Below the pieces are notes generated by a model. It worked only from the letters and a program-made list of their open reading frames with translations, did no database searches and was not told where the DNA came from. Positions 7,717-36,130 of a stretch of DNA of 64,000 nucleotides are shown one piece after another (within the stretch, counting starts at the first letter, position 1; every line of letters begins with the position of its first letter). The DNA is taken from positions 17,721,337 through 17,785,336 of the forward strand of contig CM057154.1 in NCBI GenBank assembly GCA_029962745.1. The letters are read 5' to 3'. A program made the translations under genes and the position numbers. The stretch is from Echinometra lucunter (taxonomy: Eukaryota; Echinodermata; Echinoidea; Camarodonta; Echinometridae).

Positions 7717-9195
7717 ATTCGGCAGATTCATTATTCATGAGCTTGGAAATCTCCTTCGGCCGGCCGATGACGTATGGCTCATTAATATTAACGCCTTGGA
7801 AATTGCGGGCGCGCGGAACAAGCCCAACGCACGTACCAGGTACGGTACACGTACGAATTGCATGGTCACTTCTCCATTCATTATCATACATGTGCAGTTT
7901 ATAACTGGCGTTAATCCAGCATCTTTGGCGCAAATCCGGCAGTTTTTATGAAAATAATCAAAATAATGACAATGAACCCAAATCAAAGTGTTAGTTTGTC
8001 CAACTTGATTGCAAAGACAGCATTGAATGATGAATGATTTCTGTTTTACTAGTCCATTGCTGTCTTTGCAATCAAGTTGGCCAAACTAACACTTTGATTT
8101 GGGTTCATTGTCATTATTTTGGTTATTTTCATAAAAACTGCCGGATTTACGTCAAAGATGCTGGATTTACGCCAGTTCTATGTACATTGACATGAAGGGA
8201 GAAATTAAAATGCATGTTGTGAATTATTTTTCATGAATAAATTCTGGTTTACTAGTTCAATGCTGTCTTTGCAATCAAGTTGGACAAACTAACACTTTGA
8301 TTTGGGTTCATTGTCATTATTTTGGTTATTTTCATAAAAACTGCCGGATTTACGCCCAAGATGCTGGATTTACGCCAGTTCTGTGTACATTGACATGAAG
8401 GGAGAAATTAAAATGCATGTTGTGAATTATTTTTCATGAATAAATTCTGGTTTACTAGTTCAATGCTAACTTTGCAATCAAGTTGGACAAACTAACACTT
8501 TGATTTGGGTTCATTGTCATTATTTGGTTATTTTCATAAAAACTGCCGGATTTACGCCAAAGATGCTGGATTTACGCCAGTTCTGTGTACATTGACATGA
8601 AGGGAGAAATTAAAATGCATGTTGCGAATTATTTTTCATGAATAAATTCTGGTTTACTAGGTCAATGCTGTCTTTGTAATAAAGTTGGACAAACTAACAC
8701 TTTGATTTGGGTTCATTGTCATTATTTTGGTTATTTTCATAAAAACTGCCGGATTTACGCCAAAGATGCTGGATTTACGCCAGTTCTGTGTACATTGACA
8801 TGAAGGGAGAAATTAAAATGCATGTTGCGAATTATTTTTCATGAATAAATTCTGGTTTACTAAGTCAATGCTGTCTTTGTAATAAAGTTGGACAAACTAA
8901 CACTTTGGTTTGGGTTCATTGTCATTATTTTGATTATTTTCATAAAAACTGCCGGATTTGCGCCAAAGATGCTGGATTTACGCCAGTTATAAACTGCACA
9001 TGTATGATAATGAATGGAGAAGTGACCATGCAATTCGTATAACGTGTACCGTACGTACGTTGGGCTTGTTCCGCGCGCCCGCAATTTCCAAGGCGTTAAT
9101 ATTAATGAGCCATACTATCGGCCGAACGAGATTTCCAAGCTCATGAATAATGAATCTGCCGAATCTACGCCAATATAGTCTCAACCCGAGAAAAC
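7686..9195. mobile_element. 1.5-kb foldback DNA transposon with 9-bp target duplication
   Basis: The element is 7695-9186: it starts GGTTGAGACTATATTGGCG and ends with its inverse. CGAGAAAAC lies directly outside on both sides (7686-7694, 9187-9195), a 9-bp duplication. Arms of about 330 bp are inverted copies. The middle is five tandem units of about 203 bp (8044, 8250, 8452, 8652, 8856) with GCCGGATTTACGCCAAAGATG. A 9-bp duplication fits Mutator-like transposases. No coding region. Confidence 0.88.
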
Positions 9196-10568
9196 TCGAC
9201 GGGTGCCATTTTACCTTTGCACACGTCACCAATCCTAATCGTCAAGAAAAATTGGGGGTTCCCCTACGTCTCTAATGTTAACCATAAGAAATGATTTGAT
9301 AACGAGAAGCTAGCTCCGGGTGCAGGGGTATTAGGTCTAGCGGTATCGTCCGCAGTCAGTTCTTGCCTTCGCCTACAAACTGACTCTGACTTGGCTCAGG
9401 TTCTAACCTACATTGTAGTAGTGAGGGGGTACTGAACATGACTTTAAACTTTAAGGCTGGTATGTAGACGTATAGCCTATTCATATCTGATTGACACCCG
9501 TCTTTTATTCAGAAATGTTCTACATGGACCTGCTAATGAACGGCTGAAATGGATAGCGAGTCAAATCCCTTTTTGAAAATTGTTAAAGTCATTCCGGAAA
9601 AGTTAAAGGGGCGGGACTAAATTTACGCTCTGATTATCACCTACACATTAATTACGTGGACAGCCAAGGGATGAGAATACTCATTTCTCAAAACCGTAAA
9701 ACCCAAAGGCTCTGCATCTGAACCCCATCTGTTTGGTGTCAGCCACCTCCCCCCCCCCCCTCCCCCCCTCCCCCCACCCAACTGAAAAAAAAATAATGAT
9801 AAAGAATAACGTCCCGGGGCCTAACAACTCTAAAATGTACTACAGGCCTATACAAAACTGAGGAATAACAAAGATTAATTGATTTGATTTCCCTTAAATT
9901 ATTTTTTATACTATAGACATCTATATGATATAGGTTTACTTTTGGCAAAATAATCCGAGATCGGTGATGAGTAAAGATGAGGGTGAAAAGTTACCATGCT
10001 GAAGATATTTACGACTGAATAAGTAATTGATTTGCATTCCAATCTCTGGAAAACACAAAACAAAACAACCAAAAATGCAAGCAAACACTTGAACAAAAAA
10101 AACAAAAACAAAAAAAGAAGAAGAAGAACAACAACAATACAGCAAACAATTACGGGAGCACTGCCAGCTTGTGCCACTTACTATTTATTTTCTTAATGAT
10201 GAATAATGCAAGCTAGCTTCATAAAGTCAATGTGCAATGACCCCCAAAGAACTTGTATTTTGATGATGCAATGCAGTCAAAAGTTAAGATTTCCTTTTGT
10301 AGCAGAACTTTTTAGGTCTAAGTAATGCTGAGCCCCACTGAACAAAGGAAATAAAGTTACGAGTATTAGCGAATTTTGGGGCTTTGAATTAAGCAGCTAT
10401 AAAACAAAAAAAGCGGCTGAAACTCAACTCTCATAAACTAAGTTAAAATGCATTAGGTGTGCATAACTTTGGCGATCATGTAACTTTTGTTTTCTGTCCA
10501 TTGCCTCTGGTGTTTTGTGTTCACCTTTGGGGCATGCATCGGACTGCCGTTTCCTTTTAAATGACACT
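9196..10568. other. Non-coding, nothing recognised apart from the 9.2-kb repeat
   Basis: 9200-9310 is a diverged copy of 5248-5345. There is a poly-C stretch at 9748-9778 and an AAC/AAG-rich stretch at 10090-10140. No exon supported. Confidence 0.5.
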
Positions 10569-11678
10569 ACCAGGATCAGTGGCGTATCGAGGGATCATGG
10601 CGCCCTGGACAAACAATACAGTTCTGCGCCCCCCCCCCCCCCACTCCCCAGCTCCAAGTGCCCAAACTTAACTACTTTAATATTGTACAATCGAGGTAGC
10701 GAAGCGAACGAGCGACAATTTTTTTTTTTCAGTTTTAACCGTACTATACACAATGTCTTGCGTATTTTACCCAGGAAATTTTGCAACTGACTACTGCAAT
10801 CGAGCGGTTGAGAATTTCAAAGTTTGTACATTGATAAACGGTTTTCCATTCACTCCCTTCTCAAATTGGGAGTAAAATAAACGAAAACCCTTGAGAAATA
10901 GGCCTTATCGAGAAATTTGGCAAGTCGACTGAACGTTGAGATTCCTTGTAAATGTTGAATCTCTCAAATGTTTTTTTTAATGTACTTTATCCTTTATTTG
11001 GGGGCGCAATATTGAGAAGGAGATAAAACTTCCATGATAGCCTGCAGGCAAATAAACGACGATGACATCTTCATGTACATGCATTTCAAATTTTGAGCCC
11101 TTTAAAAGCCTATTTTGATAAGAACTATATGGTGGGGGGGGGGGGCGAAATTACAAGATCTTGAAAGAAACTAATTATGCGAGGGAGCAGAGCGACCGAG
11201 CTTTAGACATGTTCGCATTGTAAGCCCTCAAAAACTGTATTTATAGTACATTTACCCAGCCGATAGGGGGGAGGGGGCACATAATTGAAAGTTGAGATTT
11301 CTTTTCAATGCTGAATCTCTGCAAATACTGTTTTGTGCAACGACAAATACATCTTAATTTTTCAAATTTGGAAGCCTTGAAAACAGCTGTTTAAGAACTA
11401 TATACTGGGGTCTCGAAATTTACATGCGAGATCCTGAAAGATAATAATTATGCGAGGCAGCTACCGAGCTTAAGATTTTTTTGCAATTTAAACCGTTAAA
11501 AACTGTATTTGTACTGCATTTACACTGCCGATGCATGGGGCGAAGAATCCTTAAGGATTTTTTTTTTCCTCATTTCCCCTTTTTTCTCTTTCGTTCTTTT
11601 GCGTTTTTGCGCCCCCTCAAAGTGCCGCCCAGGGCACTTGCCCCCCTTGCACCCCCTAGATACGCCACTGACCAGGAC
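10569..11678. mobile_element. hAT-type non-autonomous element (1094 bp) with 8-bp TSD
   Basis: Element 10577-11670: it starts CAGTGGCGTATCGAGGG and ends CCCTAGATACGCCACTG. Flanks ACCAGGAT (10569-10576) and ACCAGGAC (11671-11678) are an 8-bp duplication with one change. CA-G-starting TIRs and 8-bp duplications are hAT features. The interior repeats a poly-G/C plus GCGAGCG unit and has no transposase. Confidence 0.85.
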
Positions 11679-12665
11679 TGGAAAAAAAAAACCCTAAGAA
11701 AGAATTTCAGTGGGACTTATACCCATAAATTGCAAAATCTAAGCCAATATTCAGTACCTGCCATAGGATTCATTACCCTCCCTCCCCAACCCTTTTCTTT
11801 CCCCTACCATATTTCCCTCCGAAATCCTCTCGCCGATATCTTTATTGATTGATTGATGCAAGGTTTATTTCATTCACAAGTTTCAATAATGCAAAACAAC
11901 ATAATTTACAATTTTATTTGATATGTCGTGTTAATATACTTTTAGTCATAGACGGAGATCCCGGGGGGGGGGGGGGGACATGTCCCCTCCCCCCCCCCAC
12001 GTTTTTTTTCTGGGGGGGGGGGGATCGTCCCCCTCGATTTTTAAAGCTTATATTATTTTTCTATTTTGAGTCAGGTGACCAATTTTAGGCCAACCATTTA
12101 AATATTTTATAGGCCTAGCATACATTTTGATGGCAAAATCAGGCTTCTTTCATCATTTTTGCGGTTATTTTTAAGCTCGCTCGTTTCGCTCACTCGCATA
12201 ATAACGATCATAGCCTCTCACTTCTCGAAACAGTTTTTCGGCCAAGGACTTCCGTGTTTCCGTCCACCCCCCCCCCCCCCCACTCGTTACATGAAATCGC
12301 CGCTACTGCTTTTGCTATTTTCAATTTCAAAGAATGCAAAGAAGAAACTGAAAATTGCATGCATTGTTCCATCTTTCTTTGTTTTTATTTTTGAAATAAT
12401 TTTCTTAAACACACAATCATCCGTAGTCAGAAACCCTTCTTCACTCCTTTAAAACATCTTTCTCGATCGTGTCATTTTCTTCTCTTCGCACCCCCCTCCC
12501 CTCCCATCTCTTTTTCACACACTTCATACACACTAACACAAGCTCTCAAGTCTGCCATTTTTTTCCTCTCCCGATTAAGGTTTAAACTTTGACCTCCATT
12601 TTCAACCTCTTATTCTCCTTCTTTCAACACTTTCTCTCCTTCTTTCACTCTATTTCTGGCCTTCA
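11679..12665. other. Non-coding repeat debris
   Basis: Poly-G/C runs at 11963, 12013 and 12267, plus TTAAGCTCGCTCGTTTCGCTC near 12171. Part of 12225-12315 is an inverted relative of 60245-60335 (GTTACATGAAATCGCCG). No gene. Confidence 0.6.
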
Positions 12666-12803
12666 GGGGAGCGTTTCATGAAGTGTCTTGTCAGTGAGTT
12701 TTACTGACAAATTTCCTCTCAGCCAATCAGATGCATGGATTTCGGTAGCTTATAACAGTTATCAGTAAAAATCCTTGATAAGACACTTCATGAAACGTTC
12801 CCC
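12666..12803. mobile_element. Small hairpin MITE
   Basis: It starts GGGGAGCGTTTCATGAAGTG and ends with the inverse CACTTCATGAAACGTTCCCC; the next bases (TCTTGTCAG..TGATAAGA) also pair. It is 138 bp long. No clear target duplication. Confidence 0.85.
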
Positions 12804-13226
12804 AGATAACACTACGTGGTGTCTCTTCTGATTCTTCCCCTTCCCCTTCTCCTATCTATCTGCTCATCATATCCCTCCATCCATTCTGTGTGATAAAAAT
12901 CATTTGATTTTGCAGCTCCGTTTGTTCGTGTTTGTCTTCACAGAAGTTGAGTTTTGTTCATGAAATCATCAACCCGTCCCTTTCTTCACGAAGTGACGGA
13001 TGTGAGGAAAATCGTATTTTTTTTTTGTTCTCGATTTTGTGTTTTTTTTACATTTTTGGACATCTTTCACTAAGATCTTGAACCTCACAGAGTTTCAGAC
13101 CGTAATTATGTGTAATAACTGTCTACAGGCAGATTAAGATCAGGGTCCCCGTCTTGCAAAGAATTGCGGAAGATTCAAGTTGACCACAACCAGATATTAG
13201 TCTTAACTCCTATTTTAATACTGCAG

Positions 13227-13290
<64 letters not shown>

Positions 13291-13565
13291 GAAGATGTCC
13301 CCTCGCAAAACGTGTGCAGTGCTTCATTTTAGTACACAGTGAAAGAAAATAAATAGAATGAAGCTGACTCGAGAGCTACGTCAGCTTCATTTTATTTATA
13401 TTCTTTCACTATTTTATATATATATATATATGGGATTGAACTGAATCTATCACATGACTCTTTACAAAACTGGGACCACATAATATTGAAAAAAAAAAAG
13501 ATAAAAATGGCTCTTTGTAACAATTTAAACCCTAACCAGGCCGGGCTTTTCTGGCTGTTCTGTGG

Positions 13566-13601
<36 letters not shown>

Positions 13602-14335
13602 TTCAATCCCCCCCTCCCCCGAGATCTCGGCCGTCGATCGCACAAACGCTGTAAAAATTGGCATACACGTTACCTGAGGTGTAATCTGCCAAACTGTAAA
13701 AAAAAATTGAAGTTTTCCTTTTTATTTATTTTTTATAAATAAAAAAAATCGGGACCTTGACCTTGGCCATGACCTTGGATATCATAAATATTTATTCAAA
13801 CATAAAAAAATATTATTATGTGTATTTGTTTGGTAAATAATCTGGCATACATATATAATTCATACACAAATCATCCCATACTATGCCATTTCATGTGTTA
13901 TAATATAGGAAAATTCACTTTTTGGCGCGCGCACGATTGTAAAATACCGCGTTGCGCGAGAACCGTAGGTCCAAATTTTGTAAATTTTGTATCACAAGAT
14001 GCGTAAGACTCGGGGCTCAAAAGTCATGAAAGGCCGTGACGAAACCTTTTGCGGTTTAAAAATTAGCGCGAAAAAAATCACGCCCCTGGCCATTTCAGGG
14101 TTAAAAAGTTAACAGTGGAGTAAACAAAGAACATCACAAAGTGGCTCACTACTGAAGTCTCCTTCAAAAGCACACAAAATATCTCATTTAAAAAATACCT
14201 ATCATATTTTCCTCAACCTTCACAAACACTTCTGATTTTTCTCCTTTAATACACTAGATGTGTCATTTCATACATATGATGTCATCCTGAATAGAAATGG
14301 GAGGATGAAGGACACTTTCACAATCGATACAGAAA
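12804..14335. other. Non-coding with microsatellites
   Basis: (AT)n at 13231-13287, (TA)n at 13415-13431 and an unbroken G run at about 13567-13600. An inverted pair at 13340-13410 (GAAAGAAAATAAATAGAATG against the inverse) flanks GAGAGCTACG. No gene seen. Confidence 0.6.
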
Positions 14336-14363
14336 ACTTTCATAGGTTGGGGGTGATCATTAT

Positions 14364-14462
14364 ACTAGTAGTTTTAAGCTTCTACCAACCTTTAATTTTG
14401 TCCACAGGAGTGGACGAAAGCTCACCTACAAAATTTAAGGTTGGTAGAAGCTTAAACTACTA
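14364..14462. repeat. Near-perfect hairpin (36-bp arms)
   Basis: CTAGTAGTTTTAAGCTTCTACCAACCTT... pairs with ...AAGGTTGGTAGAAGCTTAAACTACTAG around a loop of about 30 nt. A short palindromic MITE is the simplest reading. It lies just beyond the inferred SELENOM 3' end. Confidence 0.85.
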
Positions 14463-14545
14463 GTGTACTTTCAAAATCATTAAATTATGTCACTGCCACC
14501 CTTCCATAATAAGAATATAAATCAAGTTCTGAGATGTTAAAATCA

Positions 14546-14551
14546 TTTATT
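14546..14551 (-). terminator. SELENOM: Candidate poly(A) signal AATAAA of SELENOM
   Basis: AATAAA on the minus strand (TTTATT on plus), about 110 nt after the SECIS candidate. It would give a 3' UTR of about 2.55 kb. Other AATAAA words occur earlier in the UTR, so use of this one is inferred from the SECIS position. Confidence 0.4.
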
Positions 14552-14659
14552 TCACATGGAATTATATACATGAACATTGGAGAGAACATAATTGTTAGAA
14601 TATTCATTAAAACAAAATAAATACATTACAAACAATAAAGACAATCCAAAAATATCAAA

Positions 14660-14742
14660 GCAGCCTGACGGAAAAAGTCCATATCAACAAGTCACGACTT
14701 TTGAGAAAAGTTTGTGCAACTTGCATCATTATTTCAGGCTAC
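14660..14742 (-). promoter_or_regulatory. SELENOM: Candidate SECIS element in the SELENOM 3' UTR
   Basis: On the minus strand the hairpin has ATGA at 14729-14726, 12 nt (TGCAAGTTGCAC), an unpaired AAA at 14713-14711, a small apical stem CTTTT/AAAAG, a return strand GTGACTTG, and TGA at 14686-14684. Outside lies a 9-bp stem GTAGCCTGA/TCAGGCTGC. ATGA, AA 12 nt later and a 3' GA is the SECIS core layout, with an extra mini-stem as in form 2. Weak points: few pairs next to the core, an asymmetric loop (4 against 15 nt) and the 2.4-kb distance from the stop. It was the best fit found when RTGA sites between 14.5 and 17.1 kb were inspected by eye. Confidence 0.45.
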
Positions 14743-14819
14743 AAAGATATCATTGGCATCTTGTGCAAAGTTTGAAATGTCCAACTTATAGCTACAGCTC
14801 TTGAAATGGAATATCAGAC

Positions 14820-14854
<35 letters not shown>

Positions 14855-15669
14855 AAGTGGAGGAGAGAGATAATAATTATTAATGCAAATAAAACAAATA
14901 ATAGCACAACATTTCAGGTACAAATTTGCTGACAATATCTCCTACTAATAACTGGCACATGCTACAATGTCACTAACAAAAACAAACACTAAAACAATGC
15001 AACAATTTTTTTCTGGCAGAATGACACTGGCAGGAGAATTTCTGCTGTACAAAAATGCTAGAAATATTCCTGCTAGAGCCTTCCTACTTGGCACATGACA
15101 ACTTCATACAGTCAAGCATGAAATGGTTGTAAAAATAATATCTACATATTGCTCTTTGAAATCACTTTAGACACGATTCATACAATAAAACATGTTCTTG
15201 AAATAATCCTATTATCATGTACTCCATAATTTTTGTCCATTTATCCGCACAATTACTGTCACAAAAATTCTGCACCCAGCCCCTTCAAAAAACAACAACA
15301 TACGATTCGAAATTCACATGGAATGTAAATAACAGAATTTCTTATCAAAGGGGTTTCCCCCTTCAATTAAGGTATGCAAGCACTTTAAGTCCATTTATTA
15401 CTTTATTGTTCATTGTATCTTTTCAACAGAATAAGATGATAGAATTTGATTTGGTATGGAATATCATGCTACATGTTAAGTACAGCCAAACCTGCTTTAG
15501 TGACCATCTGTCTATGAAGACCACAATTTTTTGTTTCTCCTAGATGATTTTTCCCCATGAAATATAACTTGTCCCCCAGCTACGTAACTGCACTAATCAG
15601 TGTACGTCAGCTGCGGCAAGGACTACTTGTGCTGGACTGATTCTTCAAGTGCCCAGTACCCACCTAAAA

Positions 15670-15898
15670 ACATATGGGGATGGAGCCTTCTCTTCGATTC
15701 CTCCACGTCTATGGAACTCTCTATCAATCCAACTTTGTAATTGTAACAACCTTGAGACCTTCAAATCTGAACTAAAGGCCTATCTTTTCCAGCAACTTTG
15801 TGAATAATTTGTGACATACTGTGGGAGCCGCGCCTTTGAATGTTTCTTACAGATAAATGGCGCTTTACAAATGCTGTTCATCATCATCATCATCAATA
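15670..15898 (+). mobile_element. 5'-truncated LINE 3' end (CR1/L2-like), antisense in the SELENOM 3' UTR
   Basis: A frame reading IPPRLWNSL...LETFKSELKAYLFQQLCE ends at TAA (15805-15807). PRLWNSL...FKS.LK.YLF is the usual C-terminus of CR1/L2/Jockey-type LINE ORF2. It is followed by GGCGCTTTACAAATGCTG and a (TCA)n tail, as in CR1/L2-type 3' ends. The orientation is opposite to SELENOM. Confidence 0.8.
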
Positions 15899-16204
15899 TA
15901 TATTAAAGAAACCTGTACACGAAGAACACCTACTTTAATATCCTCACCTCTTTTCTTGTCTCCCTTGGTCAGTGTAGACAGGTTTTACTGTATTATGTTG
16001 AATATTTTGACATGTGTTAACAGAGCTTATATGTCATTTTGAAAGTGTGAACTCATATTATGTCAAGTGGATTAAGTACCAAGTAGTAATAAATGTTGAA
16101 ATGTACTTCATCCACAGGAATGATAATGTAACATCGAAAAATAGATCTATGAAACATCCCAGAGACAATTAAATGAGACAATGCTGACATCTGCTGTTTA
16201 GACA

Positions 16205-16500
16205 CCTCCCTGTTTCATTTCATTTCATTTCATTTCATTTCATTTTGGTTTATTGGATAAAGAAGATCTTGTAAACACAGTCGGAAGACTGATACGTGCA
16301 AAGTTTACAAATAAGGTTACATAAAAGTAATGAGTACATGCGAATTGATAAGAAAGTAATCAAGGAACAAAAATTGAAAAAATGAACACAAAGGGCTCAA
16401 TAACTATACATGTAATTGGAAAATGAGGTTAGCACTTAGTAGCCAGCTTTTGATTGCTACAACATACTCCACCTTGCCAGGCATGTTTGACAAAGGGTGT
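16205..16500 (-). mobile_element. Retroposon 3' end with (AAATG)n tail
   Basis: On the minus strand the sequence ends ATCCAATAAACC followed by AAATG repeats (plus 16213-16245 reads CATTT repeats). A poly(A)-type hexamer plus a short tandem tail is typical of a LINE 3' end. It shares the SELENOM strand and could supply a premature poly(A) site upstream of the SECIS candidate. The 5' limit is unclear. Confidence 0.45.
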
Positions 16501-17093
16501 GAACCACAGACATAACTGTCACACTTTTAAGATATGTCATAGAACTGTTTTCAGTGATAGAAAAACCAGACCTTTTTTTGTTTAACTGTAATGTAACATT
16601 GATAATGAGCACTGTATACATGTAATCCAAATATATACGCATAGACATTTCTTAATGTATTTATTCCAAATTTATTACTGTTATATTTTTCAATTCCCTC
16701 AAATTTGGTACAATTTTGCACAGTTGCACAATCCTCTTTAGATTACTTGAGATTGACAAAAGCAGCATTCATGCTTACTTCACAAGAAGATTTAAGCAAA
16801 ATATTGACATTAGAAATTTTGTTTTCTTATGACATGACCTTATGACATTTGGACAGAGACACTGACAGACATATACATGTAGTCACATCAATTCTTGCAC
16901 CATGATCTATTCATGACTATATGATAATATAATAACAATAAAGCAATATTTTTAAAATCATTATAATATATCATAATAATGTTATTACAATATATTACAA
17001 TAACAATAATCTCTCTCTCTCCCTCCTTACTTATCTGTATAAGGCAGAAATTGTAATATGAAAAGAAAATGAATGAATGACAGAGAAAAAGTA

Positions 17094-17237
17094 TTACAAT
17101 TCCCTCTTAGTTGAATAGGGGCCTTTGGCATGCTGTTCTGGCACGTCTTCTGCAAGGTTGGATTTTTTGTAGAATCCCAATTCCTCGGTCATCATTCTAT
17201 TCAGCTCCACTTGCTTCATTTTGGACAGGTCAATCCT
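17094..17237 (-). CDS. SELENOM: SELENOM exon 4 (C-terminus, stop)
   Basis: Acceptor CTTGTAG, then 47 codons and TAA at 17096-17094. RIDLSKMKQVELNRMM and TEELGFYKK match the RIPLSEM...LGFYRK end of the family. The tail SNLAEDVPEQHAKGPYSTKREL is acidic to polar and ends in KREL. The acceptor follows a pyrimidine tract of about 700 nt. Confidence 0.94.
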   Translation of the reverse strand, partial: RIDLSKMKQVELNRMMTEELGFYKKSNLAEDVPEQHAKGPYSTKREL

Positions 17238-20200
17238 CTACAAGATGGTATGGGAAAGAGATAGAAACAGAGGGAGCAAGGGAGAAGGAGAGGGAAGGAG
17301 GGAGAAAGAGAATAAAAGAAGGAGAAAGAGAATGAAAGAGGGAGAGAGTGAAAGAGGAAGAAAGATAGTAAGAGGGAGAAGAGAGTGAAAGAGGGAGAGA
17401 GTGAAAGAGGGAGAGAGTGAAAGAGGGAGAGAGTGAAAGAGGAAGAAAGATAGTAAGAGGGAGAAGAGAGTGAAAGAGGAAGAAAGATAGTAAGAGGGAG
17501 AAGAGAGTGAAAGAGGGAGAGAGTGAAAGAGGAAGAAAGATAGTAAGAGGGAGAAGAGAGTGAAAGAGGAAGGATAGCAAGAGGGAGAAGAGAGTGAAAG
17601 AGGGAGAGTGAAAGAGGAAGAAAGATAGTAAGAGGGAGAAGAGAGTGAAAGAGGAAGATAGTAAGAGGGAAAAGAGAGTGAAAGAGGGAGAGAGTGAAAG
17701 AGGAAGAAAGATAGTAAGAGGGAGAAGAGAGTGAAAGAGGGAGAGAGTGAAAGAGGAAGAAAGATAGAGGGAGAAGAGAGTGAAAGAGGAAGAGAGTGAA
17801 AGAGGAAGAAAGATAGTAAAAGATGGAGAGAGTGCAAGAGAAAGAATGAAAGAGGGAGGGAGGAAAGGAGGAAGAGACAGAGAGGAGAGGTATGCACAGA
17901 ATTTTAAAAAAAGAAGGATAAGATGGGGGGGGGAGAAGGAAAAAAAGAAAGTGAAAAAAGGAGAAATATGAAAAGGAAAGAGGATAGTTAAACAGAAATT
18001 AAAGGGGGGGGGATTGAGGATATGACGGATAATAAGCAAATAAAAGAGGGAAAGAGAGATAAACATGTGATTTGACATCTGTTCAAATATGCCACATTAT
18101 CAAGGAAGGTTTATCAGTGGACTATTTTGTTGACATATTTCCAAGCTGTTCATATACATGTATAACCTGCTGTGGCTCACATCTTGTGTATAATATGAAA
18201 CTACATGAAAGGATTGAAGCCAAAGGGCTATTAAACATTAAATATTGTACAATGCCTACTAAGCTTGTTGTACACAAGTCAATGGAAGCTGAGCGTGCAA
18301 TATTTGTAGCACTGTATGCATACCATCCAAAAATGTACCACTGCACAGCGAGCGTGACGTCACAGTAAGATTCCCACAAATTACTTGTTTTGTTTCTTTC
18401 ATGACGTCACAATTACCATGAGCAGCATACGTGTATTCATTTGTTGCGAGAAGGCAGAGCAAGTCGCGCACTACACAAATATGTGCTAGGCATTTCACAG
18501 TCAGATTTTCTTTTCCTGTAATTTAAGCCTTTATTTCTACACCAAATTTTGACTGTTTTTCTAGAAATTTCATCAATTTCTCAGCCTTCGAGGCATTTTA
18601 CAATACAAATAAAGAATATTCTAATTTGTGCAGTGGTATGAGATTTTGTATTTGGTGAAAGATCGTGATGTAACGTACATTCAACTTGGCTTTGCCTCAG
18701 TCAATAGGCTGCTCTTTCACCTCTTGTGAAATCTCTTACCATTGCTCTCATGTAAATTTGCTCTTTGTATAGGCTACTATTCAAGGCCTAATAGCCCTAT
18801 ATCAATAAATTGAACAAAAATAAAATAAAAAAATCAAGTCAACTTAATCATTCAGATCAAAGGACTATCAGGGTGGCAATAGGTCATATTTCATTTACAG
18901 TGTATAAACAGAACAAGCCAATAGCAAGATTGTGTCTCGCCCACCCGTGACTAAATAACACGAAGGTTTCCCCAAGTACATCCCTAACCAAGTTTGATAT
19001 CGCAAAGTCTTGCAGGTAAACTTTAATGTTTGACCTCAAATGACCTTTGACCTCACCATGTGAACTCCGACAGCACCACAACATGATGTTACCCCTAGTG
19101 CATCTATGACCCAAGTTTGGTTGCCATTTGACCATCAGTTGTCAAGTTATGTGTCATAAGAGAGTCGTGCATGTAAACTGTAATGTTTGAAATAAAATAA
19201 CCTTTGACCTTACCACGTGACATCCGATGCCACTATAACATGAAGGTCTCCCAAGTGCATCCATGACCCAAGTTTAGTTAAAAAGGGAGCAGACGTTGCA
19301 AAGTTACTTATCATAAGAGAGTCTTGCAAGTAAACTTTCACGTCTGATATAAAATGACCTTTGACCTTACCATGTGACCTCTGATACCACTATAACATGA
19401 AGGTCCCCCAAGAACCCTTTCACCTTATCATGTGAAGTCCAACAGAATGATAACATGCACTTCCCCTTAGTGATCTGCAACCCAAGTTTGACTCAAAAGT
19501 GTGACACGGTTGCAAAGTTTTGTGTCATAAGAGAGTCTTGCACGTAAACTTTAACCGTTCAACGTTTGACCTGTAATGACCTTTGACCTGACCATGTGAC
19601 CTCTGACTGGACCATAACATGCAGGTCCCCTTAGTGCATCGACAACCCAAGTTTGATAGATAAGTGTCACACGGTTGCAGAGTTTTGTGTCATAAGAGAG
19701 TCTTGCACGTAAACTTTAATGTTTGACCTGAAATGACCTTTGACCTTACCATGTGACCTATGACTGGACCATAACATGCAGGTCCCCTTAGTGCATCGAC
19801 AACCCAAGTTTGATAGATAAGTGTCACACGGTTGCAGAGTTTTGAGTCATAAGAGAGTCTTGCACGTAAACTTCAACGTTTGACCTGAAATGACCTTTGA
19901 CCTTACCATGTGACCTCTGACTGGACCATAACATGCAGGTCCCCTCAGTGCATCTACAACCCAAGTTTGGTTGAAAAGTGAGTCACGGTTGCAAAGTTAT
20001 GTGTGATAAGAGAGTCTTGCACGTCAACTTTAACATTTGACCTGAAATGACCTTTGACCTTACCATGTGACCTCTGACTGGACAATAAGATGCAGGTCCC
20101 CTTAGTGCATCTACAACCCAAGTTTGATTGAACAGTGTCACACAGTTGCAGAGTTTTGTGTCATAAGAGAGTCTTGCACGTAAATTTTAACGTTTGACCT

Positions 20201-23200
20201 AAAATGACCTTTGACCTTACCATGTGACCTCTGACTAGAGCATAACATGCAGGTCCGCTTAGGGCATCTACAACCCAAGTTTGGTTGAAAAGTGAGTCAC
20301 GGTTGCAGAGTTTTGTGTCATAAGAGAGTCTTGCACGTAAACTTTAACGTTTGACCTGAAATGACCTTTGACCTTACCATGTGACCTCTGACTGGACCAT
20401 AACATGCAGGTCCCCTTAGTGCATCTACAACCCAAGTTTGGTTGAAAAGTGAGTCACGGTTGCCAAGTTATCTTTCATAACGTTTGTGACGGACGGACGG
20501 ACGACGGACGGACGACGGACGGACGACGGACGGACGACGGACGGACGACATTTGGATCCCTTAGTCTCGCCTTCACCTCCGGTGGGCGAGACAAAAATCT
20601 GTGCCCTTACAACAGAACAAACACAAAACATGCTTGAAAATGTGAAGGCACCTTACAGGTATACCAGTAAACACATAGTTACAAAAGGTAGGGGCACACT
20701 TACCTGCACTGTGTTCCCCTCTGTATCAAGAAGCAACAGATCAGGATTGGCCCCAGGGACTGGCTTGAATATGACATTATGGCTGGATTAAACTGGGTTA
20801 AGGCTCAAAACAATACCATAACATATATAACTATAGGAATCCTCGACCACGCGTGGTCGAACTTTATGCCTCCGCCATTACCAGATCAGAAATATATGGC
20901 ACTTCATGTTGATTTATTTTCATTTATACAATGACATCTTTGACCTTGACATCTGACCATGTGACCCCCAAATCTAATTAGACCATTGAGTTTTCCATAT
21001 GCATACATGATCCAAGTTGAAGTTGAACAGAGTTGTTGATTTATTGCAAGAAGGTGGTTCATGTATATAATACCTACCAGTATATGACCTTTGACCTTTG
21101 ACCTTGAGACCCCAAAATCTAATCAGATCACTGTCCTTCCCATACGCATACAAGAGCCAAGTTTGAAGTTGATCCGTCAAACGGTTATTGAGTTATTGCG
21201 AGAACGACCTATTTCTATATACATAATGACCTCTATGACCTTTGACCTTTGACCTTGAGACCCCAAATTCTAATCAGATCATTGTCCCACCCATATGCAT
21301 ACACGAGCCAAGTTTGAAGTTGATCCGTCAAACGGTTCTTAAGTTATCGCAAGAACGAAAACGGGACGGACGGACGGACGACCCGAAAATATAATTTGCC
21401 TCCGGCAACCACCTACGGTGGGCGGAGGCATAAAAAGGATAAATTCATGAAGAAGGAAGTGGAAGACAAATCGATGTTACATGTATGTGAAGTTGTGAAT
21501 CACATTTCTATTGCTTCATCACATGAATAAAATGCAAATGCAGTAAAATGGATAATAAGCAGATGTCTCTGGTACTGTTTGTTATCAGCAAAAGCAGTGA
21601 ACCTTGCATGGACACACACTAGGAATCCTGACGATTTTGCAGCACAAAATATTTACAAATTTTAAGTGATGGCCATTTTTTGACAAAAAATAAAAAAAAC
21701 TAATGAAATGCACAAATTCTGTGTGATGATTTATTTGAAGTTTAAGTATGTTTGCTACTACATTGCATGCACGCTACTGATTCTGCAACATATTGAAAAC
21801 ATGCAGAACTACGTGTATAAGGAGGTCAATGAAGGATACAAGAAATGGAGATCTTCATAGATGAAAGCTTTGGCCTCAGGCCATCTCTTTAAACATCACC
21901 CTGTACAACTCTGCATGGGAATGATAACATACCGTATACTATGTAGATCCCAACTTTTCATATAAAAAGATGCAGATCAACATGCTTCAATACACTATAA
22001 TGCACTCCACTGTGTCCACCTGCTTACTACATACCAGCATGTTATTGTATCAAGATGCAATTGTCTAATGTCTCTGCATGCATCGTTTGATATTTTCTGC
22101 ATTGCCAGCTTAATTGCCAGCAGGCTGGTACATGATCTGTGGTCATGAGAAATACACAAGTCCAGTCAATTTCATCCCAAGACTGGACTTGTATGATGAT
22201 GTTACAAACCACTGATGACTGCAATAAGAAAATAGGATAAGGGACAGGATGGGATGTCCATGAAATCTGAAATAAAATGATACATGTGATATCGCAACAA
22301 TAACTCCATAATACTTGGAAATGTATTGGACCTCAAAATTTAATGACAATGGACTTGTTTAGATGAACTGGATTTATGTTCTTTCTGTTTGGGGTTTGAC
22401 AATGATAATGACATGTACACTTCACGGCTCCACATCCGGGGGTATGTCTCATTGAAGCCTGTACATCATCTGTGTACATCACTTTCTGAAAAGCACCCTA
22501 AAAAGGGATTAAAGGGTGTACCCAATGCTGAAACAATGTTCCTTCATTTAAAGGAGCATATTTTCATTAGTGAAAATCATTTGCCTAAAGTTCCAAAATA
22601 GTCGTGTTGCCAAGCAATAAGGAAAAATATGGTAAGATTTCAGCCTATTTTTGGCACCTCCGTGGTGTCCCAGTTCCAACTGCTGTTGACCCAATGACGT
22701 CATTGTGGGTACCTTGTCGCGCAATTCTAGCAAAATGCGCGCTAGGTATATTACATCTTGTACAGTCTAGCGCGCGCATCAACTCCAGTGCGTGTTATCT
22801 GGTACCGTACCCACATTTATGTCACTGCAGGTTTATCGTATTTACTCAAATTCTGAGGTCAACCATGACCAAGCCACAAATAATTTGCCAAAATGCATTG
22901 ATTTCGATTGAAAATCATCAAAATTTTAATGTTACTGTTTTCAGAATTCTATTCTTTATCAAAATTTTTTCATCCATTGTGTAATCACTTTAAAGAAGGA
23001 GTGGTTTTGATACCCTGAACACAGAAACCTGTCTAATATCTCCAACTTTTATACCCTTAACAGAGATTTTATTCAAGGATTGCATCATCAAATCTGAATT
23101 TGATACGTTTTTGATGTATTTCTTGATTTTTCCTGTTTTTGATACCCTTAATGGGATACATGGAGTCCCCACCTTGGGCTGAAGAACAACCCTTCCCCCC

Positions 23201-25760
23201 CCCCCCACTTTCACGTGCACACGGTGGTATTCAAATGCCTACAGCATTTTCATTTTAAATACGATAAAAGAGCAATGTATATAAAATGCCTTGCTCAGGG
23301 GCATAAGTGCCGCGCCAGGAATCGAACCCTCGACTTTCGCGTCTCCAGTCAAGCGCCTTAAAACACTCGACCACAGCACCCCTAAAGATGATGTACAGGA
23401 CTCACTGAGACATCCCCCCCCCCCCCCCCCCCCCCCGGGCTCCACAGTACATCATGCATGTACATGTAAGACTGTGCTAAAAGGATACTAATAAGGGATG
23501 TCCTCATTGATGAATCGCTTCACTTCAGGAAGCTTATTCAAACGTCATCCAGTGCAGCTCTGAAAACAAAACAAAACAAACAAACAAAAATAAAGCACGA
23601 TACAAATGCATTCAGACATTCAGCTGATTTTGTGATTGCTTTAGGTACCAGTAACTTTCAAAAGACTACCAACTCTTAAGTCTCAAGGACCCATCAGCTT
23701 TTGTTTTAACCATTTATACGGTCTTACAGATTCCCTTTAGATGACATTTCTCAAATGAAGAATTTGTATGTACATCTATATTTATTTATTTACCTATCAA
23801 TTTACTTTTTTTTTGATTAGCCAGGGTAACCCTGTCAGTAATTAACACTGTCATACTAGGGTTCCTGCATATAAAGTACAAAGTTCATGCAAGTATTTAA
23901 CTCAACTCTCCCCAGCAATTATTTTCTGGAAGGTACTCAAATTTATTCAATACAATGATTAATAAGAATTTACTTCCATAACCTATCAAGAATTCCCACC
24001 ACCTTCATGACAGAAAACGATTACTATACCAAACTGGAAAAACCAACCACAAAATCACAAAACCCAACCAGACACTACATGCAATCAAAATCAGAGATCT
24101 TGAAAAAGAAACGAGCAGTACATGCATTAGAATTTCAGGCTATTGCAATAAAATAAAAGCTAAATCTTCTCTGCACTGTACTGACATCAGATCACACATG
24201 ATTATCAAGATTTGCCCTGTGACCTAGGGGGGTGGGAGGGGGGGGGGGAGGAGGGAGGGGATTACTCAATATACAAGTTTCAAATTTTATTGATTTAAAA
24301 CCATACATATTGGATTATTCTCAATTTTTCAGAGAATGCAACAAAATTTTTACAAAATACATGTGTGGTGGGTATGTGTCACAAAGATCCCCATTTTTAC
24401 ACTAAAATTTCTGTTCCAGTGTATATAGAGTACCGGCTCAGGTGTGCAGCCACTTAAAGGGAATTTGCTGATTATATTTATTAATCAAAGACTCACACAT
24501 AGTTCAGTACCATCAATGCATAGTCCAAATACCTGCTAATTGAATAGAGGGCAAACTTAAAATTATTGACCAATCTGTTCCAGTGTATATAGAGTACCGG
24601 CTCAGGTGTGCAGCTGCTTAAAGGGAATTTGCTGATTATATTTATTAATCAAAGACTCACACATCGTTCAGTACCATCAATGCATAGTCCAAATACCTGC
24701 TAATTGAATAGAGGGCAAACTTAAAATTATTGACCAATTACGTGGTCAGTAAGTGTCCATTTTTCATTTTTTCTTGTTGTGCTGCCCAACACAATGAGAT
24801 TGCACGCACAACGCTACGGGGCGCTTCTGTCTCTAAAAAGGAGGAGTGCCGACCCTACCATTATAATAAGAGGCCAATGATGACTGTTAAGACAGAAAAC
24901 TTCGGTCTAGATCTAGTTTTGCTGGTGTGGCCTTGCTCAGTTGCTGTGGACTTCTTCGCCTACTACCCTTGAATGTAGCATGGGGGGTTGGGGGTAATCC
25001 TGGGTTTTAGGGGTATAAATTATTTGCACTTGCATTCAATCGCTAACTTCAGCACACCACATACAACACAGACTGTCGTGCATGGACTATGGTTAGGATT
25101 AGGATTAAGATTAGGGTTAAGGTTAGGGTTAGGGTTGGGGTCAGTTGGGTTGTCAGGAAGAGGTTAGGGTTAGGGCTGGGGTCAGTTGGGTTGTCAGGAA
25201 GAGGTGTGCTGAAGTTAGCGATCGAATGGAAGTGCAGATAATTTATACCCCTAAAACCCAGGATTACCGGGTTGGGTGTCCGGACACGTAACAAAAATGA
25301 AGCCTTCTTTTTTGTCTTTGGATTAAACAAAAACTATGCATTGATTTGTGCTAATCGTCATCAATATTTGTTCGCTATAATATTGCCTAACAGTTTGTGC
25401 TAAAACATTTGAGAGATTTGCTTGTTAACTTTTTCAATTGGCAGTTTAAAATCGACTGTCCGGATATACAACCTGTCCGGACATCCAACAACTGGGTATA
25501 ATTGGGGCTTCCAAATTCAGACACTGGACAGCAGTATGCAGAGTGCATTTAACCTAATGCCATGGAATGCGTACGGCCACTATGGGCTGTTCTAATCTAC
25601 TTTTCGACTATTAATCAAAACCAAAAGGCAAAATTGGATCGAAAATTACCTCAACTCGGGCACTCATAACTTGTCCATTCCCCTCTGCAGTTGCGAAAAT
25701 GCCTGCAAGGAAACAAATTCCCAGGATTGCGGCCAAAAGCCGCTCTCGTTCTAGGCCCAT
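17094..25760 (-). CDS. SELENOM: Selenoprotein M (ER thioredoxin-fold selenoprotein), four coding exons
   Basis: Coding exons 25760-25650, 23559-23489, 20782-20704 and 17237-17094 (111, 71, 79 and 144 bp) join in phase into 134 residues plus a TAA stop. Seen: residues 1-25 form a signal peptide (hydrophobic core LLAAILGICFLAGIFA); ARVESCTGU follows, with Cys39 and Sec42 in a CxxU motif, Sec being TGA at 23547-23545; then RLNKLPEVKRF, EDIPYYHN, KPVPGANPDLLLLD, EELGFYKK and C-terminal KREL. Known: vertebrate SELENOM has ARVETCGGU, QDIPFYHN, PGADPELVLL and QELGFYRK in the same order over about 145 residues; it is an ER-lumenal thiol-disulfide oxidoreductase of the SELENOM/SELENOF family. Inferred: same fold, place and redox role. 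KREL resembles a KDEL retrieval signal but Arg at -3 is unusual. Introns are 2.1, 2.7 and 3.5 kb and full of transposons. A SECIS candidate lies at 14742-14660. Reading TGA as a stop would leave a meaningless 41-residue peptide, and conservation continues past it. Confidence 0.95.
17250..17990. repeat. Homopurine/homopyrimidine minisatellite (GAGGGAGAAGAGAGTGAAA)
   Basis: About 740 bp almost purely purine on plus, built of variants of GAGGGAGAAGAGAGTGAAA and GAGGAAGAAAGATAGTAA. On the SELENOM strand it is a giant pyrimidine tract that ends just before the exon 4 acceptor at 17238. Long Ser/Leu/Phe open frames across it are translations of the repeat. Confidence 0.95.
18933..20597. mobile_element. 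TIR element with a ~155-bp tandem core containing DR1-like sites (SELENOM intron 3)
   Basis: The ends are inverted: TGTCTCGCCCACC at 18933-18945 and GGTGGGCGAGACA at 20581-20593. Between them are about ten units of roughly 155 bp carrying CATGTGACC, ACCCAAGTTTG and CATAAGAGAGTCTTGCACG. Eight units contain a perfect TGACCTTTGACCT and one a near match. The array ends in a GGAC/GGACGAC microsatellite (20487-20549). No coding potential; a non-autonomous DNA element expanded by tandem repetition is inferred. Confidence 0.75.
20704..20782 (-). CDS. SELENOM: SELENOM exon 3
   Basis: Acceptor TTTAATCCAG, then 79 bp encoding (Y)HNVIFKPVPGANPDLLLLD and TEGNTVQ, ending CAG before a strong GTAAGT donor at 20703. 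The PGANPDLLLL stretch corresponds to PGADPELVLL of vertebrate SELENOM. Phases are 2 in and 0 out. Confidence 0.94.
20863..21435. mobile_element. Related TIR element with GCCTCCGCC ends and TGACCT repeats (SELENOM intron 2)
   Basis: The left end TTTATGCCTCCGCC (about 20867) is inverted in GGCGGAGGCATAAA (about 21421-21434). The core has 2-3 units with TGACCTTTGACCTTTGACCT, CAAGTTTGAAGTTGATCCG and a GGAC run near 21366-21383. It is organised like the element at 18933-20597 but has different terminal repeats. Confidence 0.7.
22509..22993. mobile_element. TTAA-flanked MITE, copy 2 (SELENOM intron 2)
   Basis: It is about 80% similar to 1608-2095 along its whole length. It starts TTAAAGGGTGTACCCAATG and ends, read inverted, TTAAAGTGATTACACAATG. 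TTAA target sites at both ends and short imperfect TIRs suggest a piggyBac-type non-autonomous element. The centre holds CCCAATGACGTCATTG, a CRE-like palindrome. Confidence 0.65.
23212..23392 (-). mobile_element. tRNA-derived SINE, copy in SELENOM intron 2
   Basis: On minus: GGTGCTGTGGTCGAGTG (A-box-like; its TGGTCGAGTG is at 23373-23364), AAGGCGCTTGA, GGGTTCGATTCC (B box, about 23331-23318), then a non-tRNA tail ending AACGTGTGCACGTG-like. The head resembles a Leu/Ser-type tRNA. Two sister copies lie at 28761-28937 and 45398-45553. Confidence 0.8.
23489..23559 (-). CDS. SELENOM: SELENOM exon 2, carries the selenocysteine TGA codon
   Basis: Acceptor TTTTCAG at 23560, then AGC TGC ACT GGA TGA CGT: Ser-Cys-Thr-Gly-Sec-Arg. 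TGA occupies 23547-23545. The exon goes on LNKLPEVKRFINEDIPY and ends in phase 2 at a GTATCC donor (23488). TA from this exon plus C from exon 3 make the Tyr of the conserved IPYYHN, which confirms the unusual donor. The 71-bp exon is invisible to a stop-to-stop ORF search. Confidence 0.94.
24411..24738. repeat. Tandem duplication, 2 x 164 bp (SELENOM intron 1)
   Basis: Two adjacent copies begin CTGTTCCAGTGTATATAGAG at 24411 and 24575 and are almost identical; only a few substitutions such as AGCCACT/AGCTGCT are seen. No coding signal. Confidence 0.9.
24776..24915. mobile_element. Solo terminal arm of the 2.9-4.5 kb foldback family
   Basis: TGAGATTGCACGCACAACGC, TTCTGTCTCTAAAAAGGAGG, AGTGCCGACCCTACCA and ACTTCGGTCTAG repeat, in order, the right arm at 4371-4485. 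Only one arm is present, so this is a remnant or a minimal copy. Confidence 0.7.
24985..25271. mobile_element. Foldback element with a telomere-like TTAGGG core (SELENOM intron 1)
   Basis: Arms 24985-25061 and 25201-25271 are inverted copies (GGTAATCCTGGGTTTTAGGG, GCTAACTTCAGCACACC). Between them, 25089-25200 holds degenerate GGTTAGGGTTAGGG and a doubled GGGGTCAGTTGGGTTGTCAG unit. It is more likely a MITE with a telomere-like minisatellite than a chromosome end. Confidence 0.75.
25650..25760 (-). CDS. SELENOM: SELENOM exon 1 (start codon, signal peptide)
   Basis: The ATG at 25760-25758 opens 37 codons encoding a basic N-terminus (MGLERER), a hydrophobic core (LLAAILGICFLAGIFA), then TAEGNGQVMSARVE. 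The exon ends GTTGAG followed by donor GTAATT at 25649, phase 0. The start is chosen because it is directly followed by a canonical signal peptide of the expected length, and CpG-rich DNA lies upstream. The following intron is 2090 bp. Confidence 0.93.
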
Positions 25761-33014: not shown

Positions 33015-35476
33015 AATTAAATTTCAAATTTTTTCAAAATCATGTTTATTCACTTCCAACAGAAAAAAGAAATATGACATTTGCATAGATATAATCATCA
33101 TGGAATTAAGATATATACATAATATTTTTTTTCCCTTCATGAGTAAACATATCAGTAAATAATTAGAATAAATTATCATAAATTAAATTATTGATTTCTG
33201 TGGAAATGGAGGGTTCCACTAAAAAGCAACTGCTTGTAGTTTGTGGAACCCTCAAAAAATAAAATTGTTGCACATTTAGCCTACGAAGACTAGCAAAACA
33301 CGAAACAATATCAGAACAGAACAGAACAGAACAGAACAGCACAAAAGGAAAAACAAACAAACAAACACGAGGCGACAAGGAAAGGGAAAGCAAGAAAAGA
33401 AAAAGGGGAAAGAAAATAATGATAAGAGCAGGACATCAAAACCGAAAAAGGAAGTAAATATAGTGGTGATTTCAACAAGGTAAGATGGTATAATAATCAA
33501 TTTGAGGAGATGATGAAGACCCAAATGAAAATTTAAGATTGACAGGCATTATTATTGTACCTTAGTGTAGGATTTGAGAAAACACGTTTTAAGTTTTTTC
33601 TTGAAAGAATTAAGGGATGGACTTTTTATAATCTCTTCACTTAAAGAATTCCAGAATCTATAGGACCATCATGCATAAATGTTTTCTTAGCTAATAAGGT
33701 TCTGAAGAGTGGTAAGTAAAACTCGTTGGACTGTCTAGTTGGGTCATGATGAAATAAACGATTTTTGGGGGACATTGCATCAAATATGTGTGGAAGCATG
33801 TTGCTATTGTATTTATACATAAATTGCCCTAAGTGAAATAGATATAGGTCATTTATTTTTAACAGTCAGCTGTAAGCAAATAACGGGTCTGTGTGTGAGA
33901 GTATAGAAGAATGGTTAGTAATACGGAGAGACTTCTTTTGCAATAAAAGTAGTCTATCTAATAGAGTTTGGTGGGTATTACCCCAAACAAGAATGCCATA
34001 ATTCAAATAAGGTAAAATTAAAGAAGATTAAAGCATCAGTAAGGTTGGTGGTGGAAAATGAAATTTCACTTTATTTATTATGCCAATGTTACGTGAAATA
34101 ATCTTACAAGTATTTTCATTTCCACGAAAGTTTGTTGTCAACGGTTATGCCTAATTTAATGAACGAGACAACTTCTAAAGGGGTATCATCAAACATAATA
34201 TTCGTGGACAGTGCGTCTGTAGAGTTACTAAATAACATAATATATTTGGTTTTTTGGAGGTTAAGGGATAGTTTATTAGCTCTTATCCATTGAGTGACCT
34301 TTCCAAGCTCAGAATTTACAGTACTGACAGAGTGTTTGGATTTTTATGGGAATAGATTAGAATCGTCGGCGAAAAGTATGAACGAAAGAGTATCGGATGA
34401 TTTACAAAAGTCATTTATATAAACGATAAAGGGCCCAATAAAATGCCCTGTGGGACTGCACAATTTATATTTCATATTGGATGTACGATCATTCAAAAAT
34501 ACGTATTGTCGTCTATTGGATAAGTAGCTCCTGAACCACTCCAAGGCCTTCCCACGCATCCCATAATGAGAAAGTTTGTATAATAAAATGTCGTGATTGA
34601 TGGTGTCGAAGGCCTTGGAGAAGTCCAGGAAAATACCAACCATATGAGAACAATTGTCTAGAGCATGTGCTTCTTTGTCAACAAAATTCAGTAAGGCATG
34701 TTCTGTATTATGTTTTTCTCTAAATCCAAACTGAAAATTTGAGAAAATATTGTGAGTTTTTAAAAAGTTAACAGTTCTACTGTACGCAACATTTTCTAGA
34801 ATTTTTGACAAGGAGGATAATAGGTCGATAATTACTGACATTTAGCTTATCACCTTTGTTGTAAAGGGGTATGACCGTTGCAATTTTCATGTTATCTGGG
34901 ACTTGTCCATTAAGTAACGATAGATTTAGAATGTGTACTAAAGGATTAACAATTGAAGATATTATACCTTTTAAAATGAAATTATTAATATCGTCATAGC
35001 CGGGACTATTTTTTGTTATTCAAACTGGATGCAATATCAATAATATCTTGTTTAACAACAGGGGTGAAGAATACAGAATTAGGATTAGGTATGCCTAGAT
35101 ATTCAGAAAAATGTTTGGTTGAAGGAGGAACATCTTGAGCTAGGTTTACTCCTATAGAGGAAAAATAATTATTGTAAGTATTGGCTACATTTTCAGGATC
35201 TTCAACTATATATCATAATTTTCTCTAATTTTAGTTTTGTTTGTTTTGTTATTGGATAAGTTCATTGCTTGTTTTAAAATCTTCCATGTGTTTTGCATAT
35301 CGTTTTTATAAAGATTTAACTGGTTTGTAAAGTATTTTTTCTTTGCCAATCGTATTGTTTTAATCAAAGTATTTCTTTATCTAGAGTATCTAGCTTTAGT
35401 TTGTTCAGTGCCTTTCATTTTAAATTTGTAGTACAAGTTATTTTTTCTGTTAATAGAACGTAAAAGTGATTTGGAA
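33015..35476 (-). pseudogene. LINE reverse transcriptase (Jockey/CR1-like), decayed and cut by the gap
   Basis: The intact frame 34841-34344 (minus) contains QFGFREKHNTEHALL, FLDFSKAFDTINHDIL, WFRSYLSNRRQYV and the catalytic FADDSN. Frameshifts are visible: NYRPI (near 34825) and VPQG (near 34450) sit in other frames. Downstream frames give VTQWIRANKLSLNLQKTKY (about 34300-34220) and LRITNHSSILSH (about 33930), the usual thumb and C-terminal region. The 3' end near 33015 has AATAAA; its 3' UTR recurs at 51886-51960. Family choice is tentative. Not active as it stands. Confidence 0.9.
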
Positions 35477-35976
35477 NNNNNNNNNNNNNNNNNNNNNNNN
35501 NNNNNNNNNNNNNNNNNNNNNNNNNNNNNNNNNNNNNNNNNNNNNNNNNNNNNNNNNNNNNNNNNNNNNNNNNNNNNNNNNNNNNNNNNNNNNNNNNNNN
35601 NNNNNNNNNNNNNNNNNNNNNNNNNNNNNNNNNNNNNNNNNNNNNNNNNNNNNNNNNNNNNNNNNNNNNNNNNNNNNNNNNNNNNNNNNNNNNNNNNNNN
35701 NNNNNNNNNNNNNNNNNNNNNNNNNNNNNNNNNNNNNNNNNNNNNNNNNNNNNNNNNNNNNNNNNNNNNNNNNNNNNNNNNNNNNNNNNNNNNNNNNNNN
35801 NNNNNNNNNNNNNNNNNNNNNNNNNNNNNNNNNNNNNNNNNNNNNNNNNNNNNNNNNNNNNNNNNNNNNNNNNNNNNNNNNNNNNNNNNNNNNNNNNNNN
35901 NNNNNNNNNNNNNNNNNNNNNNNNNNNNNNNNNNNNNNNNNNNNNNNNNNNNNNNNNNNNNNNNNNNNNNNNNNNN
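35477..35976. other. Assembly gap (500 N)
   Basis: Exactly 500 N, so an arbitrary placeholder length is likely. It lies between the LINE and a tandem repeat. Confidence 1.
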
Positions 35977-36110
35977 AGTTTATATTGAATAGGTTTAAAT
36001 AATAGTCATTAAAGGTTCTGATAAATCTATATGTTCCGGATATTCTGATAGTGTCTGCGAAGGAGTTAACAAAATGTTTATACATGTATTTCTATTTTGA
36101 GAAGTCTTAT
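35977..36110 (-). mobile_element. LINE fragment beside the gap
   Basis: The minus frame reads YKHFVNSFADTIRISGTYRF and on. The same segment, interrupted after DTIRISG, recurs at 37640-37536 and 39369-39265. It may be the 5' continuation of the LINE on the other side of the gap. Confidence 0.5.
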
Positions 36111-36130
36111 TCTCAATAAGTTATCCTAAA

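Follow-up and report, generated by a model that had tools for sequence, protein, structure and literature searches.

The selenoproteins recorded for sponge, cnidarian, annelid and amphioxus include selenoprotein M (SelM, encoded by SELENOM; PMC3473315, Table 1), and a selenocysteine (Sec)-containing SELENOM is thus to be expected in invertebrates. The CXXU motif of SelM, in which U denotes Sec, lies between strand beta1 and helix alpha1 of the protein (PMC10668967). Frame-incompatible tandem duplicated exons form a second described system, in which homologous exons are adjacent, have a length not divisible by three and yield a non-functional product when included jointly (PMC5740500, PMC9741552); 377 of 629 human clusters have such lengths, and five cases of incompatibility between U2-type and U12-type splice sites are given (PMC5740500). 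The present analysis concerns a SELENOM gene in a stretch of 64,000 nucleotides from the echinoid Echinometra lucunter (assembly GCA_029962745.1, contig CM057154.1, positions 17,721,337 to 17,785,336), hereafter called the window. With a probability of roughly 0.8, this gene makes two endoplasmic reticulum (ER)-type selenoproteins of the thioredoxin fold, one from each of two alternative, duplicated 71-bp Sec exons. The sequence features, the reading frames, the family membership and a selection signature between the two exon copies are documented below; expression of both exons, U12 splicing, SECIS (selenocysteine insertion sequence) function and any difference in enzyme activity between the products are inferred.

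Gene model and family identity

The original prediction described a SELENOM gene of four phase-matched exons on the minus strand, and its coordinates and phases all hold when the exons are rejoined:

25760-25650, minus strand: exon 1, 111 bp, with the start codon, ending ..ARVE in phase 0; U2-like donor GTAATTTT
23559-23489, minus strand: exon 2 (2a), 71 bp, reading SCTG-U-RLNKLPEVKRFINEDIPY(Y), with the Sec TGA at 23547-23545
20782-20704, minus strand: exon 3, 79 bp, reading (Y/F)HNVIFKPVPGANPDLLLLDTEGNTVQ; U2-like donor GTAAGTGT
17237-17094, minus strand: exon 4, 144 bp, reading RIDLSKM..STKREL, followed by the stop codon TAA

The introns between these four exons are all of the GT..AG form, and the spliced exons amount to 405 nt, encoding 134 residues and the terminal TAA. 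The sole in-frame stop before this TAA is the TGA at codon 42 (23547-23545), which is followed by 92 residues. The exact start is uncertain, since another ATG is found in frame 11 codons further upstream and no stop intervenes. The product of exon 1 has a signal-peptide-like N terminus, as judged by eye, and the KREL C terminus is a KDEL-like ER-retention end.

Protein searches were performed with the joined protein, Sec being entered as Cys. The protein containing exon 2 (isoform A) matches PF08806 (Sep15_SelM) over residues 34-106 with an E-value of 1.6e-21 and 76.6 bits (cut-off 26), and this is the only Pfam family matched at E <= 10. Its best match in the PDB sequence set is selenoprotein M 2a2p, which we take to be the mouse protein (E 4.9e-24, residues 33-128); Sep15 2a4h (E 0.013) and one unrelated match (E 0.03) come next. 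In the 2a2p alignment, the similarity to SelM spans the UGA and continues for more than 80 residues beyond it. The earlier claims that the exons encode SELENOM with Cys-Thr-Gly-Sec, and that conserved sequence continues past the TGA, are both borne out by these matches, and the homology check suggested for the 134-residue product did find SelM similarity downstream of U42, reaching residue 128. The predicted departure of CTGU from CGGU was likewise recovered, the exon having CTGU as against CGGU in PMC10668967 and CGGC in the 2a2p chain. The Pfam and PDB matches cover both sides of the UGA and are not attributed to chance; the locus is, judged by its sequence, a true animal SELENOM gene. Repeats were also observed in two of its introns, namely telomere-like GGTTAG repeats within intron 1 (25091-25205) and a 157-bp tandem repeat of 6.4 copies in intron 3, a few hundred bases past exon 3 (19450-20463).

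A second selenocysteine exon in intron 2

A tblastn search of the window with the 2a2p stretch placed exons 4, 2 and 3 in the top three ranks (37.7, 29.6 and 28.9 bits, respectively). The fourth match, with 24.6 bits, fell in intron 2 (21916-21827), as against a highest score of 22.7 bits in 30 first-order Markov (Markov-1) control windows, and corresponds to a further exon:

21910-21840, minus strand: exon 2b, 71 bp, reading SCTG-U-CLKRWPEAKAFIYEDLHF(F), with TGA at 21898-21896

Exon 2b has the same length as exon 2, the same entry phase (0) and exit phase (2), and TGA at the same codon, the CXXU motif being CTG-TGA in both. It is preceded by AG, with the acceptor ..CCCATGCAG, and followed by GT, and it reads SCTGUCLKRWPEAKAFIYEDLHF, with a further F when the first base of exon 3 is added. 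Exon 2 as the sole query recovers exon 2b with an E-value of 1.5e-4. The protein containing exon 2b (isoform B) matches PF08806 with an E-value of 6.8e-19 and 68.1 bits (cut-off 26), and matches SelM 2a2p with an E-value of 8.7e-22 as against 0.019 for 2a4h. In a profile scan of both strands, the two exons scored 88.3 and 87.0 and the next place 18.3, scores that are partly circular because the profile was built with both exons. No third copy of exon 2 was seen among the eight top-scoring places on each strand, and the search for duplicates of exons 1, 3 and 4 gave none among the best four tblastn matches of each. All four exons of the original prediction are therefore retained as real, but the four-exon model was incomplete in that a second Sec exon sits in its intron 2; this exon, a SECIS candidate and U12-type splice signals are the additions made here.

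Exons 2 and 2b are identical at 44 of their 71 bases (27 differ) and at 13 of 24 residues. One of the 13 shared residues is Sec; nine of the other 12 have codons that differ, and because these conserved sense codons differ only silently, both copies have apparently been under selection. Silent sites are saturated, as against a nonsynonymous proportion (pN) of 0.23. Within the first 69 bases the copies differ 26 times, 15 of these at third positions (P 0.0011), and the P value of a rounded silent-versus-replacement table is 2.5e-7. A neutral simulation was performed in which exon 2 was diverged without indels in 20,000 trials per level, a trial passing if the frame stayed open, the TGA was retained and 13 or more of 23 positions remained identical. 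The proportion passing was 0.54% at 38% divergence, the value for the whole exon, and 0.005% at 50%, with none at 65%, the value for third positions. When the two copies were compared by blastn together with 300-bp flanks, the single match below an E-value of 1 extended over the exon plus some 8 nt of the donor. The duplication is old, and both copies look as if they had been maintained over most of their history.

Splicing, UGA decoding and alternative readings

The consensus of the U12 5' splice site is RUAUCCUU, and AG at positions -2/-1 is incompatible with true U12 sites (PMC10853781). Exon 2 has a T-rich, U2-like acceptor and a U12-type donor, and exon 2b has an acceptor that looks U2-type and likewise a U12-type donor. 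Both donors are GTATCCTT, agreeing with the consensus at 8/8 positions, and the bases preceding them are TA in exon 2 and TT in exon 2b, not AG. On both strands of the 64 kb, GTATCCTT occurs exactly twice, each time as one of these two donors; about two occurrences are expected by chance, and it is therefore the position of the sites, not their number, that constitutes evidence. A putative branch point for the common acceptor is found further along the gene:

20797..20804, minus strand: GCCTTAAC, similar to a U12-type branch point and located about 15 nt upstream of the acceptor of exon 3

This element agrees at 7/8 positions with the branch-point consensus TCCTTRAY (UCCUURAY in RNA; PMC10853781), and the exon 3 acceptor has no pyrimidine tract by eye. 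The branch-point signal is weaker than the donor signals, and intron 2 would be removed by U12-type splicing.

The 5' site of the intron between exons 2 and 2b is U12-type, and its 3' site is U2-like. A TAA arises where exon 2 is spliced to exon 2b, and skipping of both shifts the frame, with a stop after one codon. The two exons are thus homologous, adjacent and phase-matched, and their joint inclusion or joint skipping is non-functional. The mixed U12 donor and U2 acceptor, together with the frame, suggest that each mRNA contains one Sec exon. In the mechanism that we propose, the U2-type donor of exon 1 would join the U2-type acceptor of either exon 2 or exon 2b, the minor spliceosome would connect the U12-type donor of the chosen exon with the U12-type acceptor of exon 3, and joining of the two Sec exons to each other would be disfavoured by their unlike sites and, if it occurred, would end in the TAA. 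Each product would have 134 residues and would differ from the other only in the segment after CTGU (U-RLNKLPEVKRFINEDIPYY or U-CLKRWPEAKAFIYEDLHFF), and a single SECIS in the shared 3' untranslated region would serve both UGAs. From the place of CXXU at the beta1/alpha1 boundary, the exchanged part would consist of the motif and the first residues of the active-site helix. We consider it probable that the Sec-bearing active-site helix is swapped in this manner as a unit, made exclusive by the minor spliceosome and the frame, with one SECIS for two UGAs. Since Cys directly follows Sec in isoform B (CTGUC), the isoforms may have different redox partners or potentials.

The reading of the UGA as Sec is supported by the family similarity that flanks it on both sides and by a SECIS candidate located downstream on the same strand:

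14669..14737, minus strand: SECIS candidate, with an AUGA core, an unpaired AAA stretch, a 3'-side UGAU and a small extra helix in its apical part
14546..14551, minus strand: poly(A) signal AATAAA, the first AATAAA or ATTAAA past the SECIS candidate

The AUGA is at 14729, 2364 nt past the stop codon, and the predicted fold consists of a 9-pair helix, the unpaired AAA, the extra small helix and then UGAU. The Rfam model SECIS_1 was aligned over its full length with 21.3 bits (E 0.068 with all families on a 251-base stretch); at the gathering score, a setting that cannot show this candidate, Rfam reported no families in the 64-kb window. A strict shape scan covering the full window on both strands gave four hits (three on the minus strand and one on the plus strand), the candidate being the most stable of them, and the runner-up, at the UGA of exon 2, was not matched by SECIS_1 in a stretch of equal length (251 bases). 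In a looser scan of 8000-17093, in which nine candidates were kept of 158 folded, it was the second most stable. Structures of equal quality were found in 3 of 400 Markov-1 strands of the length of the 3' region, at a cut-off chosen after the candidate had been seen. This element would be the SECIS of the gene. Stem-loops directly after the UGA may act as Sec redefinition elements. The stem-loop right after the UGA of exon 2 (23544-23503, minus strand) exceeds its synonymous variants in stability (fractions 0.001-0.015 overall, about 0.01 for 42 nt and 0.001-0.004 for 60 nt), and exon 2b has no excess stability after its UGA (fractions 0.31-0.39 for 42 nt and 0.17-0.23 for 60 nt). A redefinition element is not claimed for exon 2, because exon 2b shows no comparable fold.

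Some of the findings weigh against a choice between two Sec exons, and they are given here together with the alternatives to it. Exon 2b may be an unspliced relic of an old duplication, only the four-exon SELENOM being made. It is the less SelM-like of the two copies, sharing 11 of 24 residues with 2a2p as against 14 of 24 for exon 2, and its acceptor is less T-rich. If exon 2b had been lost recently, the selection signature would still be present, as the silent/replacement contrast sums the past of both copies and would not register such a loss. Many trials also pass the neutral simulation when divergence is lower, namely 39% of them at 15% and 11.6% at 25%. However, silent changes are saturated while amino-acid changes are few, the neutral simulation rarely succeeds at the divergences observed (0.54% at 38% and 0/20,000 at 65%), and the splice sites and the U12 donor of exon 2b are intact between intronic flanks that have no detectable similarity to those of exon 2. 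A relic is, on balance, decidedly unlikely. The proposal that exon 2b acts as a poison (or cassette) exon, added after exon 2 so that nonsense-mediated decay tunes the level of SELENOM, draws on the TAA formed when the two are joined. Such an exon needs no coding conservation, whereas exon 2b keeps SelM-type residues and a TGA at the Sec position; further, the exon 2 donor is U12-type and the exon 2b acceptor is without a U12-like branch point (best 5/9). This proposal is considered very improbable.

A choice between the two Sec exons might also be made without the minor spliceosome, if the GTATCCTT donors were used by the major spliceosome and exclusivity arose from the frame and decay or from RNA-binding proteins. 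The branch-point evidence is open to challenge, since a 9-base consensus separates the acceptors by a small margin (7 for exon 3, 6 for exon 4 and 5 each for exons 2 and 2b) and CCTTAAC is not rare (10 in the window on both strands, with 9 expected). However, three listed introns with the exact GTATCCTT carry AG at -2/-1, where TA and TT are found here, and the exon 3 acceptor combines the lack of a pyrimidine tract by eye with GCCTTAAC at about 15 nt; the alternative is unlikely, if the least so of those weighed here. Taken literally, the standard code makes the UGA a true stop giving a 41-residue peptide, or the locus a pseudogene, a reading that is scarcely credible given that SelM similarity extends more than 80 residues past the UGA, that the UGA has an identical position in two diverged exons and that a SECIS candidate is present. 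The remaining points on the unfavourable side concern mainly this candidate. Its 21.3 bits are below the Rfam gathering score of 35, it was not reported by Rfam at E <= 10 on 16 kb and 2.5 kb, and its region is only moderately more stable than shuffles (z -1.71 for 101 nt and -1.00 for 56 nt). The top candidate in the looser scan was another one, at 15107 (-11.5), which has a long inner loop and a poor shape. The stretch from the stop codon to the candidate (17093-14738, minus strand) contains five AATAAA and one ATTAAA, and with these proximal poly(A) signals some mRNAs could be without the SECIS. With isoform A as the query, none of 28 candidates from a protein database reached E <= 1e-3, and 16 pattern matches in viral contigs included no relative.

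Other features were observed elsewhere in the window. A tandem unit of about 1.73 kb (36101-40424; 97.7% identity over 2605 bp) begins shortly after a run of 500 N (35477-35976), and the assembly may be collapsed or expanded here. A reverse transcriptase fragment at 34347-34841 on the minus strand (RVT_1, E 1.6e-17) is read as a non-long-terminal-repeat-like element. A satellite-like array with a 203-bp unit (4.7 copies, 96% matches) occupies 8030-8988, and at 3721-4373 there is a long palindrome, a stretch of 653 bp matching its own reverse complement (82%). The number of tRNAs found in the window was zero.

Comparison with known systems

Among the matches listed in a mostly open-access literature search, none links selenoproteins, in its title or the start of its abstract, to exons that are duplicated or mutually exclusive or to U12 introns. 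The main texts of PMC5740500 and PMC9741552 contain no word starting with "selenoprotein", and that of PMC9741552 none starting with "seleno". A literature word search for CTGU returned a matching paper from whose main text the word is absent. The working of SELENOM is still under study, and two natural active-site helices on one protein body would provide a built-in comparison of the residues around Sec. If the proposed mechanism is true, the recoding of UGA would be linked to the minor spliceosome. A Sec exon of this type can be missed twice by gene finders, once for its UGA and again as a duplicate.

The gene has in common with SELENOM and PF08806 the thioredoxin-like domain, the CXXU motif, a signal-like N-terminal stretch (by eye) and similarity over the whole domain, and differs from them in having CTGU for CGGU, a KREL C terminus and a duplicated Sec exon that would give two forms. 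SELENOF (Sep15) belongs to the same Pfam domain, but its match (2a4h, E 0.013) is far weaker than that of SelM and its motif is CGU (PMC10668967) in place of the CXXU found here. The closest parallel for the splicing appears to be the JNK gene family, in which mutually exclusive splicing with the same U2/U12 splice-site incompatibility is known; here, by contrast, the gene encodes a selenoprotein, and the exon that would be exchanged bears both the recoded UGA and the active site.

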